A stretch of 64,000 bases of DNA, from positions 1 to 64,000 of the forward strand of contig JADZEB010000044.1 in assembly GCA_020850755.1 (NCBI GenBank), read 5' to 3'. The notes below the pieces were generated by a model, which saw nothing but the letters and a program-made list of their open reading frames with translations, had not been told where the DNA came from and made no database searches. Shown piece by piece: positions 20,137-51,544 of this stretch. Position numbers and translations under genes: made by a program. Source of the stretch: Alphaproteobacteria bacterium. Its GTDB lineage: Bacteria > Pseudomonadota > Alphaproteobacteria > Acetobacterales > Acetobacteraceae. Within the stretch, counting starts at the first letter, position 1. Every line of letters begins with the position of its first letter.

Positions 20137-20180
20137 TTCGCGTTTGCGGCCCTGCGGCATGCGCCGCCCGCCCGCGACAC

Positions 20181-20196
20181 TTGAACGGCCGTTCAA
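20181..20196. promoter_or_regulatory. Perfect 16-bp palindrome covering a -35 element
   Basis: TTGAACGGCCGTTCAA is fully self-complementary. Its first half supplies the -35 hexamer of the promoter at 20181-20209, so a bound dimer would block RNA polymerase. The form GAAC-N4-GTTC is shared by several TetR-family operators and by the Gram-positive LexA box; alphaproteobacterial LexA uses a different box. The binding protein is unknown and not encoded nearby. Confidence 0.6.
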
Positions 20197-20209
20197 ATGT
20201 CGCTATAAA
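20181..20209 (+). promoter_or_regulatory. Sigma-70 type promoter of the 79-residue gene
   Basis: TTGAAC (20181-20186) and TATAAA (20204-20209) are separated by exactly 17 bases, close to consensus and rare in this GC-rich sequence. Transcription would begin near 20216, giving a leader of about 50 bases that contains the Fur-like box. Confidence 0.65.
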
Positions 20210-20220
20210 GGCGCACAGGA

Positions 20221-20239
20221 GTTGCGAGTGATTCGCAAC
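20221..20239 (+). promoter_or_regulatory. Fur-type operator candidate 1
   Basis: GTTGCGAGTGATTCGCAAC has perfect 7-base arms around five bases. The same TTGCGA-N5-TCGCAA form occurs before the iron permease gene, and the TGCGA-N5-TCGCA core before the iron receptor gene. The site begins 12 bases after the -10 hexamer. The match to known iron regulators is inference from sequence form and from the two iron-uptake sites. Confidence 0.65.
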
Positions 20240-20267
20240 TGGCTCGCAAGCGGAGGCGGGGCCCCTG

Positions 20268-20507
20268 ATGGGACGCGAGGTTTCGCTGATCGCGCGGCGC
20301 TGCGAACGGGCGGTCGTGACCGCCTATCGCGAGCTGCGCCAGCATGGCACGGCCGACCTGGCCGCGTTCCAGGCCTGCACCGTGCTCTATCGCATCCACC
20401 ACCCCGAGGCCTCGCAGGCCGAGGCGCGGCGGCTGGTGGCGGAATGGATCGACCATCATGTGGTGCGCGGATCGAGCGCGCCGACGCCGGGCTGCGCTTG
20501 CGGCTGA
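20268..20507 (+). CDS. Small Cys/His-containing protein, probably iron-regulated
   Basis: 79 residues, unrecognised. It appears largely helical (SLIARRCERAVVTAYRELRQ, then DLAAFQACTVLYRIHHPEA, then AEARRLVAEWIDHHVV) with an unstructured tail ending GCACG. Potential metal ligands are C12, C37, C76 and C78 plus the pairs H44-H45 and H63-H64. No signal or membrane segment is seen. GGAGG lies 11 bases before the ATG. Its promoter carries a near-consensus -35/-10 pair, a 16-bp palindrome and a Fur-type box, so it is likely made under iron limitation. A following hairpin ends a one-gene transcript. A role in iron handling is inferred only from control and composition. Confidence 0.7.
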   Translation: MGREVSLIARRCERAVVTAYRELRQHGTADLAAFQACTVLYRIHHPEASQAEARRLVAEWIDHHVVRGSSAPTPGCACG

Positions 20508-20534
20508 GCGGCGGGGGCCAGGGGAACCAACGCA

Positions 20535-20560
20535 GAAGGGGCGCCGCGCGGCGCCCCTTC
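20535..20560. terminator. Hairpin between convergent genes
   Basis: GAAGGGGCGCC / GGCGCCCCTTC, perfect 11-bp arms with a GCGC loop, lies between the stop of the 79-residue gene and the stop of the minus-strand orphan. It could serve both directions; no T run follows either arm. Confidence 0.6.
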
Positions 20561-20577
20561 GTCGTTGCGGAGTCGGA

Positions 20578-21219
20578 TCAAGTCCAGCCGGATAGCGCCA
20601 CTTTCTGGTGTCGATCCTTTTTCGTCTCCGGTAACCAGACTTCCCCAGTTCCCGGGAGAATCCATGTCCCCTTTAGATCGACTGCGGGTTTCTTGGGGAG
20701 AGGCACAGCGAGGCCAGAGGGGTCGTCGCTTTGATCCTGCCAGTAGCGCACCCAGCGGGGCGCACATAGGACCGGCGGGGCTCCCCTGACCAGCAGCGCC
20801 CAGTCGTCGTGCATCCACAGCTTGCTGTCCGGACCACGCAATGATCGCTCATGCCGCGTCCAATCGCTGCCGGGACAGCGTGACTGGAGGATCGGGATGA
20901 GCGCATCCACTGCGCCTCGGTTGAACGCGATTCCGTTCTCGACGCCCAAGTAGTATTGGGCGCGATATCCGGAACGGCCGTGGAAAAACTGATCGAACAA
21001 TGGGAGCGAGACCGGGATCACAGCCCATGACCGAGACAACCCCTTATTGTCGCGTGCTGGCTCCCAACAAAACGAAATTGTTCCGACACACGCGGCGAGA
21101 CGGCACTCCTCCACGAGGCGGCCGAGAACCTCCTCGGACGAGGGTGGATGAAGCAGCCGGTCGCGGCGACCTGGATCGCTAAGACCGTCGAGCTGCCATT
21201 CCTCCTCGGAAACAAACAC
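20578..21219 (-). CDS. Low-GC orphan protein, about 213 residues
   Basis: A frame read from GTG 21219, 14 bases after the racemase stop on the same strand. It has a visibly lower GC content and more A/T third positions than its neighbours. The protein is soluble, Trp/Pro-rich, with SEEEWQLDGLSDPGRRDRLL at the start, VENGIAFNRGAVDALIPILQ in the middle and WVRYWQDQSDD near the end. I recognise no family. Composition suggests recent acquisition. Other starts are possible, and the coding status rests on the long open frame and ordinary amino-acid composition. Confidence 0.5.
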   Translation of the reverse strand: MFVSEEEWQLDGLSDPGRRDRLLHPPSSEEVLGRLVEECRLAACVGTISFCWEPARDNKGLSRSWAVIPVSLPLFDQFFHGRSGYRAQYYLGVENGIAFNRGAVDALIPILQSRCPGSDWTRHERSLRGPDSKLWMHDDWALLVRGAPPVLCAPRWVRYWQDQSDDPSGLAVPLPKKPAVDLKGTWILPGTGEVWLPETKKDRHQKVALSGWT

Positions 21220-21232
21220 GGCGCCGCCGCGC

Positions 21233-21970
21233 CTACTCGGCCGCCCTGGCGACCCGCAGCTCGCCCTTGGCCCAGGCGATGGCGGCGCGCGCATGCGCCT
21301 CCACCGTGTCCACCACCGGCACCCCGAACGCCGCGCGGTCGCCCGCCTGCGCCGCGAGCGGCAGCTCGGTGCAGCCCAGCACCACGGCCGCCGCGCCGCG
21401 ATCCTTGAGGAGCTTCACCGCCGCCACCAGCGGCGCGAAGGAGCCGGCCAGGTCGTTGCGCTTGACGCACTTGATCGAGGGGGTGGAGGTGGCCGCCATC
21501 TCGGCATCGTCGAGCGAGAGGGGCGCATAGCCGCGCGCCGCCAGGCGCTGGTGGTAGAGGCCGCTTTTCACCGTCGCCGTGGTGCCGAGGATACCCACCC
21601 TGGCGCCTGCCGCGATGCCCTGGCGGGCGAGGTCGGAGGCCGCCGCATCGACGATGTGCAGGATCGGCGTCTTGATCGCCGCCTGGATCTCGTCGAACCA
21701 GAGATGGGCGGTGTTGCAGGCGATGCAGATCATGCCCGCCCCCGCCTGCTCCAACACGCGCAGGCCGTGGATCATGCCGGGCGCGGGGCTCGGGCCGCCA
21801 TCGAACATCGCCGCCGGGCGGTCGGGGATGGTGGGGTCGGACCACAGCACGGCGCGGACATGGTCCTGGTCGCGCGTGGCCGGGCAAAGCAGGGTGAGCT
21901 GGCGCAGGAACTCCGCCCCCGCGAGCGGGCCCATGCCGCCCAGGATGCCGACGATCGGTTGTGCGCTCAT
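21233..21970 (-). CDS. Aspartate/glutamate racemase family protein
   Basis: A 245-residue Asp/Glu racemase superfamily member. VGILGGMGPLAGAEFLRQL starts it. The two catalytic cysteine regions are MICIACNTAHLWF and AAVVLGCTELPL, as in cofactor-independent aspartate racemases that use a Cys pair for proton transfer. A longer in-frame start exists, but MSAQPIVGILGGMGP at 21970 fits the family. The gene lies 82 bases behind a TauE/SafE permease on the same strand and probably shares its transcript. Amino-acid specificity is not readable. Confidence 0.9.
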   Translation of the reverse strand: MSAQPIVGILGGMGPLAGAEFLRQLTLLCPATRDQDHVRAVLWSDPTIPDRPAAMFDGGPSPAPGMIHGLRVLEQAGAGMICIACNTAHLWFDEIQAAIKTPILHIVDAAASDLARQGIAAGARVGILGTTATVKSGLYHQRLAARGYAPLSLDDAEMAATSTPSIKCVKRNDLAGSFAPLVAAVKLLKDRGAAAVVLGCTELPLAAQAGDRAAFGVPVVDTVEAHARAAIAWAKGELRVARAAE

Positions 21971-47708: not shown

Positions 47709-47727
47709 AATGCGAATTACTCGCAAC
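47709..47727 (+). promoter_or_regulatory. Fur-type operator candidate 2, before the iron receptor
   Basis: AATGCGAATTACTCGCAAC contains TGCGA-ATTAC-TCGCA (47711-47725). It lies 18 bases before the receptor ATG and just behind TATAGC (47698-47703), with TTGCCA at 47677-47682 as a possible -35 (spacing 15). The placement relative to the -10 matches candidate 1. Confidence 0.65.
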
Positions 47728-47744: not shown

Positions 47745-48782
47745 ATGTCCGTCCGCTCCGTCGGCGCAGCCCGCCTTCTCACCCTCGCCGCCGCCCTCGG
47801 CATCGCCGCCGCGCCGATCGCGGCAGAGGCGCAGGAGGTGAACCTCTATTCCGCGCGCCACTACGACACCGACCGCGAGCTCTACGATGCCTTCACCCGC
47901 GCCACCGGCACCCGGGTGCGGCTGATCGAGGGCGATGCCGACCAATTGATCGAGCGCATCCGCAACGAGGGCGCCAACAGCCCGGCCGATGTGCTGATCA
48001 CGGTCGATGCGGCGCGGCTCTGGCGCGCGCAGCAGGCCGGCATCCTGGCGCCGCTCCGCTCGCAGGTGCTGGAAAGCCGGGTCCCGGCCGCCTTCCGCGA
48101 CCCGGAGGGCCACTGGTTCGGCTTCTCCAAGCGTGCGCGCGTGATCATGTACGACAAGAGCCGCGGCCTGCCGCAGGGCCTGGCCCGCTACGAGGATCTG
48201 GCCGGCGAGTCGTTGCGGCGGACGATCTGCGTGCGCGCGGCCAATCAGGTCTACAACATTTCGCTCGCGGGAGCGATGCTGGCGGCCAACGGGCCGGCAG
48301 CGACCGAGTCCTGGGCGCGCGGCCTGGTCGCCAACATGGCCCGCCCGCCCCAGGGCGGGGACACGCCGCAGATCCAGGCGGTGGCGGCGGGACAGTGCCG
48401 CATCGCGATCGCCAACACCTATTATCTCGCGCGGCTGGCGGCATCGTCGAATGCGGCCGAGCGCGCGGTGGCCGAGAAGATCGGCGTGCTGTTCCCGAAC
48501 CAGGGCGATCGCGGCACGCATGTGAACATCTCGGGCGCCGGGATCGTGCGCACCGCGCCGAACCGCGCCGCGGCGCTTGCCTTCCTCGAATATCTCGCCT
48601 CGCCCGCGGCGCAGGCTTTGTTCGCCAACGGCAATTTCGAGTATCCGGTGGTGGCGGGCGTGGCGATCCATCCCGCGCTGGCCGCCTATGGCCAGTTCAA
48701 GGAGGATCAGCTCAACGCCGCGACCTATGGCGCCAACGGCCCGCAGGCCTTGCAGATCATGCAGCGCGCGGGGTGGCGCTGA
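47745..48782 (+). CDS. fbpA: Ferric-iron ABC transporter substrate-binding protein
   Basis: A 345-residue periplasmic ferric-binding protein. The signal peptide runs to AEA, with cleavage before [17 protein letters not shown], the classic FbpA/FutA start. The tyrosine pair in [11 protein letters not shown] (Y226-Y227) and Y35/H39 are the iron ligands expected in the family. [19 protein letters not shown] is also typical. It binds Fe3+ for the FbpB permease. A Fur-type box precedes it, so it should be made under iron limitation. The permease is 0.9 kb away on the other strand and no ATPase is in the window. Confidence 0.94.
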
Positions 48783-49702: not shown

Positions 49703-51469
49703 TCAGCGCGACCGGACCGGCGTGCTGCGGCGCATGGCGCGCGACAGCACCACCACCGGGATCAGCCCCACCAGGACGATCGTCAGCGCCGCCGGCGCCG
49801 CCTGGGCCAGCTTCTCGTCCGAGGCGAGCTGGTATACGCGCACCGCCAGCGTATCGAAATCGAACGGGCGTATGATCAGGGTTGCCGGCAGCTCCTTCAT
49901 CGTCTCGACGAAGACCAGCAGGCCGGCGGTGATCAGGCTGCCCGAGATCAGCGGGGCATGCACCTCGAACAGGGTCCGGCGCGGCCCGCGGCCGAGGGTG
50001 CGCGCGGCGCCATCGAGGCTCGGGCGCACCTTGGCGAGCCCCGCCTCCACCGTCACCAGCGCAACGGCCAGGAAGCGCACGAGATATCCGAACACCAGCG
50101 CGGCCATGCTGCCCGAGAGCAGGAGGCCGGTGGAGAAGCCGAGATGCGCCCGCGCCCAGGCATCGAGCGCATTGTCGAAGGCGCCGAAGGGCACCAGCAC
50201 GCCAACCGCGATGACCGAGCCGGGAATGGCGTAGCCCATGCCGGAAAGCCGCGTCGCCAGCCGCTGCGCACGCGAGGGATAGAGCCGCGCGCCATAGGCG
50301 AGCACGGTGGCGATCGCCACCGCCGCCACCGCGGTGGCGGCGGAGAGCGACAGGCTGTGCCAGGCATAGGGCAGCAGGCGGCGCAACTCGGTCAGGCTGA
50401 GGGAATCGATCGCATTCCAGAGCAGCGCCAGCGCCGGCACGCCGAAACCGAGCAGCACCGGCAGGGCGCAGGCGATGCAGGCGACAAGTCCGGCCAGCGT
50501 GCCGAGCCGCTGCGGCTCAAGCGGCTGGTGCCTGGTCGTGGTGCCGTGATAGGCGCGCCTGCCGCGCGTGATGCGCTCGATCGCCAGCATCAGCGCCACC
50601 GCCGCCAACAGCGCAGCGGCAAGCTGGCTCGCCGCGCCGCGATCGCCCATGCCGAACCAGGTCTCGTAGATGCCGGTGGTGAAGGTCTTGACCGCGAAAT
50701 GCTGCACGGCGCCGAAATCGTTCAGCGCCTCCATCACCGCCAGCGCGACGCCGCCGGCCATGGCCGGGCGCGCCAGCGGCAGCGCGACGCGACCGAGCCT
50801 GCCCCACGGCCCGCAGCCCAACGTGCGCGACACCTCCAGCAGGCACACCGACTGCTCCAGGAAGGCGGCGCGGCAGAGCATGTACACATAGGGGTAGAGC
50901 GTCAGGCCGAGGACGGCGATGGCGCCGGCCAGCGACCGCACCTCGGGGAACCAGTAGTCGCCATAGCCCCAGCCGAAGGCGGCGCGCAGCGCGCCTTGCA
51001 CCGGGCCGGTGAAGTCGAGCAGCTCGGTATAGACATAGGCCATCAGGTAGCCGGGCATGGCCAGCGGCAGCAAGAGCGCCCACATCAGCGTGTCGCGGCC
51101 GGGAAAGCGCGCGACCGTCACCAGCCAGGCGCAGATCACCCCGATCGACAGCGCAACGGCGCCGACGCCAAGCGCCAGCAGCGCACTGTTGAGCAGCAGT
51201 TCCAGAAGCCAGGTGTCAGCGAGATGCTGCCAGACCGCGCCGGCCGGGCGCAGCGCCGCCCACAGCACCGCCAGCACCGGGGCGGCCATGCAGGCGGCGT
51301 TGAGCAGGGCGAGCGCGGTCCAGCCCGGCGGCATACGCCGCCAGGCGCGCACGCCGAGCCCCGCCGGCGGCACCGGCTCCGGCGCGCCGTCGGGGACGCG
51401 GCCGAGCGGATCGCCGAGGGGGCGGCGCAGGCCGGGACCTGGCAGGGGAACGGCGGCGGGATGGGACAT
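49703..51469 (-). CDS. fbpB: Ferric-iron ABC transporter permease, fused two-domain form
   Basis: A 588-residue inner-membrane permease with about twelve helices in two binding-protein-dependent transport domains. Their cytoplasmic coupling loops are EVSRTLGCGPWGRLGRVALP and GAARTLGRGPRRTLFEVHAP. EALNDFGAVQHFAVKTFTTG is the FbpB/SfuB signature in the first half; FVETMKELPATLIIRPFDFD marks the second. It moves Fe3+ delivered by FbpA. A 40-residue Pro-rich cytoplasmic leader precedes helix 1. A Fur-type box lies 57 bases upstream of its ATG. The cognate ATPase (FbpC) is not in the window. Confidence 0.94.
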   Translation of the reverse strand: MSHPAAVPLPGPGLRRPLGDPLGRVPDGAPEPVPPAGLGVRAWRRMPPGWTALALLNAACMAAPVLAVLWAALRPAGAVWQHLADTWLLELLLNSALLALGVGAVALSIGVICAWLVTVARFPGRDTLMWALLLPLAMPGYLMAYVYTELLDFTGPVQGALRAAFGWGYGDYWFPEVRSLAGAIAVLGLTLYPYVYMLCRAAFLEQSVCLLEVSRTLGCGPWGRLGRVALPLARPAMAGGVALAVMEALNDFGAVQHFAVKTFTTGIYETWFGMGDRGAASQLAAALLAAVALMLAIERITRGRRAYHGTTTRHQPLEPQRLGTLAGLVACIACALPVLLGFGVPALALLWNAIDSLSLTELRRLLPYAWHSLSLSAATAVAAVAIATVLAYGARLYPSRAQRLATRLSGMGYAIPGSVIAVGVLVPFGAFDNALDAWARAHLGFSTGLLLSGSMAALVFGYLVRFLAVALVTVEAGLAKVRPSLDGAARTLGRGPRRTLFEVHAPLISGSLITAGLLVFVETMKELPATLIIRPFDFDTLAVRVYQLASDEKLAQAAPAALTIVLVGLIPVVVLSRAMRRSTPVRSR

Positions 51470-51525: not shown

Positions 51526-51544
51526 ATTGCGAGTCACTCGCAAC
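51526..51544 (-). promoter_or_regulatory. Fur-type operator candidate 3, before the iron permease
   Basis: ATTGCGAGTCACTCGCAAC contains perfect arms TTGCGA-N5-TCGCAA (51527-51543). On the minus strand CATAAG (51561-51556) would be the -10, 12 bases upstream of the box, matching the geometry of candidate 1. Confidence 0.65.

Follow-up and report, generated by a model that had tools for sequence, protein, structure and literature searches.

A 64,000-nucleotide stretch of an Acetobacteraceae genome (the window) contains a small gene with two palindromes in its promoter region, which raises the question of what this gene encodes and which signals control it. The preliminary description had reported a TTGAAC-17-TATAAA promoter, a perfect 16-bp palindrome over the -35, a 19-bp Fur-type palindrome past the -10, and a 79-residue protein with C12, C37, two HH pairs and a terminal CxC, the whole closed by a hairpin. 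It had proposed a small protein made in iron starvation, answering to a second regulator as well and possibly serving as a metal-binding adaptor. The features of the locus, numbered as in the window, are as follows.

20175-20202: dyad CGACACTTGAAC-GGCC-GTTCAAATGTCG, overlapping the -35; candidate second operator
20181-20186, plus strand: -35 hexamer TTGAAC, read from the sequence
20204-20209, plus strand: -10 hexamer TATAAA, after a 17-base spacer
20220-20240 (17-bp core 20222-20238): Fur box AGTTGCGAGTGATTCGCAACT, just 3' of the -10
20244-20249, plus strand: extra half-site TCGCAA, 3' of the Fur box and present in several relatives too
20252-20256, plus strand: Shine-Dalgarno-like GGAGG, read from the sequence
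20268-20507, plus strand: gene for a 79-aa protein of an unnamed family, with C12, C37, HHPE, DHH and GCxC and a predicted three-helix bundle
about 20534-20561, plus strand: GC-rich hairpin 3' of the gene, without a long T run; weak candidate for a terminator

The promoter and the protein were as described. Both hexamers are present, the Fur-type palindrome GTTGCGAGTGATTCGCAAC occupies 20221-20239 and begins 12 bases past the -10, and the open reading frame encodes C12, C37, H44-H45, H63-H64 and C76-x-C78. The palindrome over the -35, TTGAACGGCCGTTCAA at 20181-20196, was also found, but its true extent is longer: it belongs to the 28-bp dyad, in which 11 of 12 arm positions are paired. The closing hairpin exists as well, but the label of terminator is weak, since it lacks a long T run and its stretch (-37 kcal/mol) folds only modestly better than shuffled sequences (z -1.35). 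Strict scans for sigma-70 promoters and terminators gave zero matches at the gene, in keeping with the TTGAAC form of its -35 and the hairpin's lack of a long T run. Among 93 distinct orthologue promoters a TTG precedes the Fur box at a near-constant distance of 36-44 bases. In about 20 Acetobacteraceae genomes the gene sits 3' of, and in the same orientation as, a tartrate/isopropylmalate-type dehydrogenase gene, and the position of the Fur-box promoter between the two suggests that the small gene forms its own transcription unit. Just 3' of it, on the minus strand, is an open reading frame of 238 aa (20578-21294).

Judged by sequence comparison, the 79-residue frame is a real gene. An orthologue was present in 54 of the 59 other Acetobacteraceae genomes searched, one in each and at 55-82% identity; 381 stretches encode a relative, including those of Roseococcus, Elioraea, Rhodovarius, Neoroseomonas and Rubritepida. 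A profile search found the family in 42 of 385 genomes of the class, and it is present in 55 of 59 Azospirillaceae genomes, often in several copies. One genome (G463; L337, L371-L374) has six family matches, two of them after mntP. The best Pfam match was to an unrelated RRM (E 0.047), below its cut-off, and NCBIfam gave zero matches; HemP and the other named small proteins were likewise not recovered, in that no curated family of either collection matched. Origins in phage or defence systems were considered and dropped, there being no significant match in PHROGs or PADLOC, respectively.

Conservation within the family divides the candidate metal ligands into two groups. Of 98 distant homologues, 94 have C12, 79 H44, 92 H45, 94 P46 and 94 W60, and most retain one or two N-terminal cysteines. 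C37, H63/H64 (the DHH motif) and the terminal GCxC are traits of the Acetobacteraceae; C37, where 94 of the 98 distant homologues have alanine, was rejected as a family-wide ligand, and 73 of the 98 end in a C-terminal histidine. The cysteines and histidines singled out by the preliminary description thus hold family-wide for C12, H44 and H45, but only in Acetobacteraceae for C37, H63/H64 and the CxC. AlphaFold2 predicted three helices (residues 2-25, 30-44 and 50-66; mean pLDDT 85, pTM 0.75), and from their order we deduce that antiparallel packing would place C12 close to H44/H45. A sequence search of the PDB gave no significant match; in fold comparison with the PDB the best Foldseek E was 1.9 and VIA-align Z scores reached 7.8, which is usual for helical bundles.

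The evidence for iron control comes from the Fur box. By a weight matrix derived with the window left out, the window site scored 28.1, against a maximum of 10.1 in shuffled windows; within the 64 kb two further loci, and no more, scored above 12. A significant Fur box (p<0.01 against shuffles) lies just 3' of the -10 in 41 of 55 orthologue promoters by a matrix derived from relatives, and a recognisable one is missing in the remaining 14. In a named-genome set of 80 loci, which overlaps the 55 promoters, 62 scored above 10. The genome encodes a Fur gene and has four Fur-box sites with no more than one mismatch, namely those at the small gene and before bfd-bfr, and two others in the window.

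47710-47726: Fur box of the same type, upstream of the gene for a FutA/FbpA-type ferric-binding protein (47745-48782, plus strand)
51527-51543: Fur box of the same type, upstream of an iron-type ABC permease gene (49703-51469, minus strand)

The FutA/FbpA-type protein matches the iron transport protein 2pt1 in the PDB (E 1.8e-114). In the window, strong Fur boxes occur only at the small gene, the FutA-type gene and the permease gene, each with its own separate box. The window gene is very probably under Fur control. Its box overlies the likely transcription start, a position that, from known Fur biology, fits repression by Fur-Fe(II): transcription would be blocked while iron is sufficient, and the gene would be derepressed on iron starvation. 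The half-site at 20244-20249 may possibly mark a second Fur dimer.

The Fur box before bfd-bfr raises one alternative for the product, namely a carrier of an Fe-S cluster or of heme, in the manner of bacterioferritin-associated ferredoxin (Bfd), that serves the release of iron from storage. Control by the same kind of box in the same genome would fit this, as would the four cysteines, GCxC included, and the position of one paralogue behind a fixX-like ferredoxin gene. Yet the protein gave no match to Fer2_BFD (PF04324) with the E limit set at 10, the genome has a separate Bfd-type gene with its own Fur box, and both C37 and GCxC are absent from distant homologues, so that we consider a cofactor carrier improbable.

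The second palindrome required a comparison across the relatives. TTGAACGGCCGTTCAA occurs once in the 4.5-Mb genome. When the 93 distinct orthologue promoters were aligned on the -35, the dyad arms paired at no fewer than 7 of 10 positions in 25 of them, while the 4-bp centre varied; in eight slid registers only 0-1 promoters reached this level. One could instead ascribe the palindrome to the -35 hexamer, as a by-product in a single slowly changing clade of promoters, with no operator at all. TTGAAC is after all the -35 itself, and the dyad is missing from most of the 93 promoters outside one clade, Elioraea variants apart. Moreover, right arms dealt at random among the promoters still gave a mean of 10.8 promoters (about 11) with at least 7 pairs, a high value that reflects the shared ancestry of the dyad clade. 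This ancestry inflates the permutation result, so the register test and coupled changes in the two arms carry more weight. Such changes were found as TTGAAT..ATTCA in L244 and L247 and as ACGATTGAAC..GTTGAATCGT in L208 (Elioraea). Against a by-product there are also the 25 promoters observed, where permutation reached at most 19, the persistence of the arms around a changing centre, and the recurrence of the dyad at mntP in this genome and in Azospirillaceae. We therefore regard a mere by-product as very unlikely, and a true second operator as highly likely.

The recurrence at mntP bears on the identity of the second signal. In the window genome the sole other copy of the dyad with at most one mismatch precedes mntP, identified by Pfam as a manganese exporter; a third candidate (C34:14226) had three mismatches and was set aside as within chance level. 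Only 3 of 16 dyad-bearing genomes have mntP, and the dyad is in all three mntP promoters, that of Rhodovarius included, with 11, 10 and 9 matches to the 12 core positions (p about 0, 0.015 and 0.13 against shuffles). In five Azospirillaceae genomes TTGAAC-(AGCT/ACCT)-GTTCAG stands immediately before the TTGACA of an operon with an mntP homologue. The dyad is missing from most other alphaproteobacterial mntP promoters and was rejected as a general mntP element. In the Azospirillaceae set, L369 has a manganese riboswitch that passes the Rfam threshold, whereas the matches in L127 and L370 stay under it.

Three other readings of the dyad were considered and rejected. A LexA site of the form GAAC-N4-GTTC would belong to a regulon with many copies in the genome, and two good ones exist. 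A terminator of ttuC is disfavoured by an earlier hairpin-like repeat that already lies 3' of ttuC and by the lack of a T run in the dyad. As for MntR, the DtxR-type C-terminal domain was not found in 9 of the 16 dyad genomes. In the window genome, a 96%-complete draft, this domain occurs only as a fusion to an ABC-3 permease, with no match to a stand-alone MntR; the fusion, a metal ABC-3 permease with the DtxR-type metal-binding domain at its C-terminus, is encoded at L294 367-1731 (contig C11). The dyad common to mntP suggests that genomes in which no stand-alone MntR was found have a so far undescribed regulator of manganese export.

Both regulatory claims of the preliminary description are well supported at the level of sequence. 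For the iron-starvation small protein there is a Fur box conserved at the orthologues and found again before iron genes; for the second regulator, a dyad conserved in register and common to mntP. Alignment of upstream regions in relatives showed both palindromes to be conserved (41/55 and 25/93 promoters, respectively), as was the frame itself (54/59 genomes).

The neighbours of the homologues connect the family with metal control more widely. At 20 of about 40 distant loci the gene begins 19-104 nt 3' of fur on the same strand. One such fur neighbour was tested and is of the Fur family (Pfam FUR, 3e-39; closest PDB chains Fur), and the remainder align to it at 50-80% identity. Among 73 places in Azospirillaceae, a set that counts at least one locus twice and partly overlaps the 20 distant fur loci, the gene lies directly after fur in 54 and after mntP in 7; five of these seven mntP-following loci carry the same dyad. 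Overall about 70 loci of alphaproteobacterial distant homologues, above all in Azospirillaceae, directly follow fur. Of the remaining Azospirillaceae places, eight adjoin a gene for a CsoR/RcnR-type repressor (PF02583), with a CDF exporter (PF01545) found in five stretches: in four loci (L379-L382) the homologue lies between repressor and exporter, and in four others (L377, L383, L386 and L397) it is divergent from the repressor. The copy in L119 is preceded at 19 nt (upstream of 4001) by an open reading frame that by eye resembles a thioredoxin-like [2Fe-2S] ferredoxin and has no Pfam match at 0.001.

This repeated pairing with fur, with mntP or with a CsoR/RcnR-type repressor and CDF exporter would also be expected of a protein modulator that binds and tunes Fur-family sensors or MntP/CDF exporters, as an anti-sensor or exporter inhibitor. 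Such an MntS-like modulator is the main rival of a metal buffer or chaperone, and it has a precedent in the small protein MntS, for which inhibition of MntP has been suggested (PMC4361602). However, the near-invariant C12 and H45-P46 are more readily explained by a metal site than by an interaction surface alone, and Fur, MntP and CDF proteins share no fold, which makes a single small protein contacting all of them the less simple explanation. We consider it unlikely, though less so than the cofactor carrier.

A Fur site, a site common to mntP, and relatives beside metal sensors and exporters together indicate that the gene probably encodes a small helper in metal balance. A role in metal homeostasis is likely on this evidence, and direct binding of metal has about an even chance. 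On balance we lean towards a small cytosolic metal-handling protein, a Fur-repressed, dyad-controlled metal buffer or chaperone, as the overall explanation. A divalent metal would sit between C12, at the beginning of helix 1, and H44/H45, which close helix 2; the GCxC tail may be a further ligand, in the place usually taken by the C-terminal histidine in distant homologues. The second regulator, acting at the dyad, would add a manganese-related or other metal signal. Iron limitation, sensed through Fur, and manganese excess, suggested by the linkage to the manganese riboswitch and mntP, both amount to a low iron-to-manganese ratio, and this favours a metal buffer or chaperone. By buffering metal or passing it to sensors and exporters, the protein may help the cell to cope with such a ratio; that particular mechanism is put forward tentatively. 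It is conceivable, at somewhat less than even chances, that the family has separate copies for iron (beside fur), manganese (beside mntP) and other divalent cations (beside CsoR/RcnR-CDF genes), with the window copy gated by Fur and the mntP-controlling regulator and expressed at a low iron-to-manganese ratio.

The earlier interpretation therefore holds in part: the iron link and the second regulator are supported by sequence, but C37, H63/H64 and the CxC are not general features of the family. The 'metal-binding adaptor' would now draw strength from C12, H44, H45 and P46 and from the fur, mntP and CsoR/RcnR-CDF neighbourhoods. Three things are new: the family itself, which has no name; its repeated association with metal sensors and exporters; and the operator in common with mntP. 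Almost every Acetobacteraceae or Azospirillaceae genome searched has a member of this family, which is tied to three kinds of metal-control gene and is unnamed in Pfam and NCBIfam; if it is a metal buffer or carrier, it would fill a gap in the account of how iron and manganese are kept separate in these bacteria.

Among known systems, the dmeRF-like CsoR/RcnR-CDF modules have homologues inside or beside them, whereas the window gene stands alone. To our knowledge, these modules have not been described with the small protein among their components. Bfd (PF04324) resembles the window protein in being small and cysteine-containing, and its gene here has a Fur box of the same type, but its cysteine pattern is different, and the window protein has the HHPE motif and a three-helix model. 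The Fur regulon of Gluconacetobacter diazotrophicus, also an Acetobacteraceae member, is described with a 19-bp palindromic Fur box, as here, and a single functional Fur; the small gene is not known to be identified in the main text of that study (PMC9368920). E. coli MntS is likewise a small protein of manganese and iron homeostasis tied to the MntP exporter, and it links MntP, manganese excess and Fur (PMC4361602). The window genome differs in giving no match to a stand-alone MntR in its 96%-complete draft. MntS is induced at low manganese, together with MntH (PMC4361602), whereas the window gene carries a Fur box and an mntP-type dyad.
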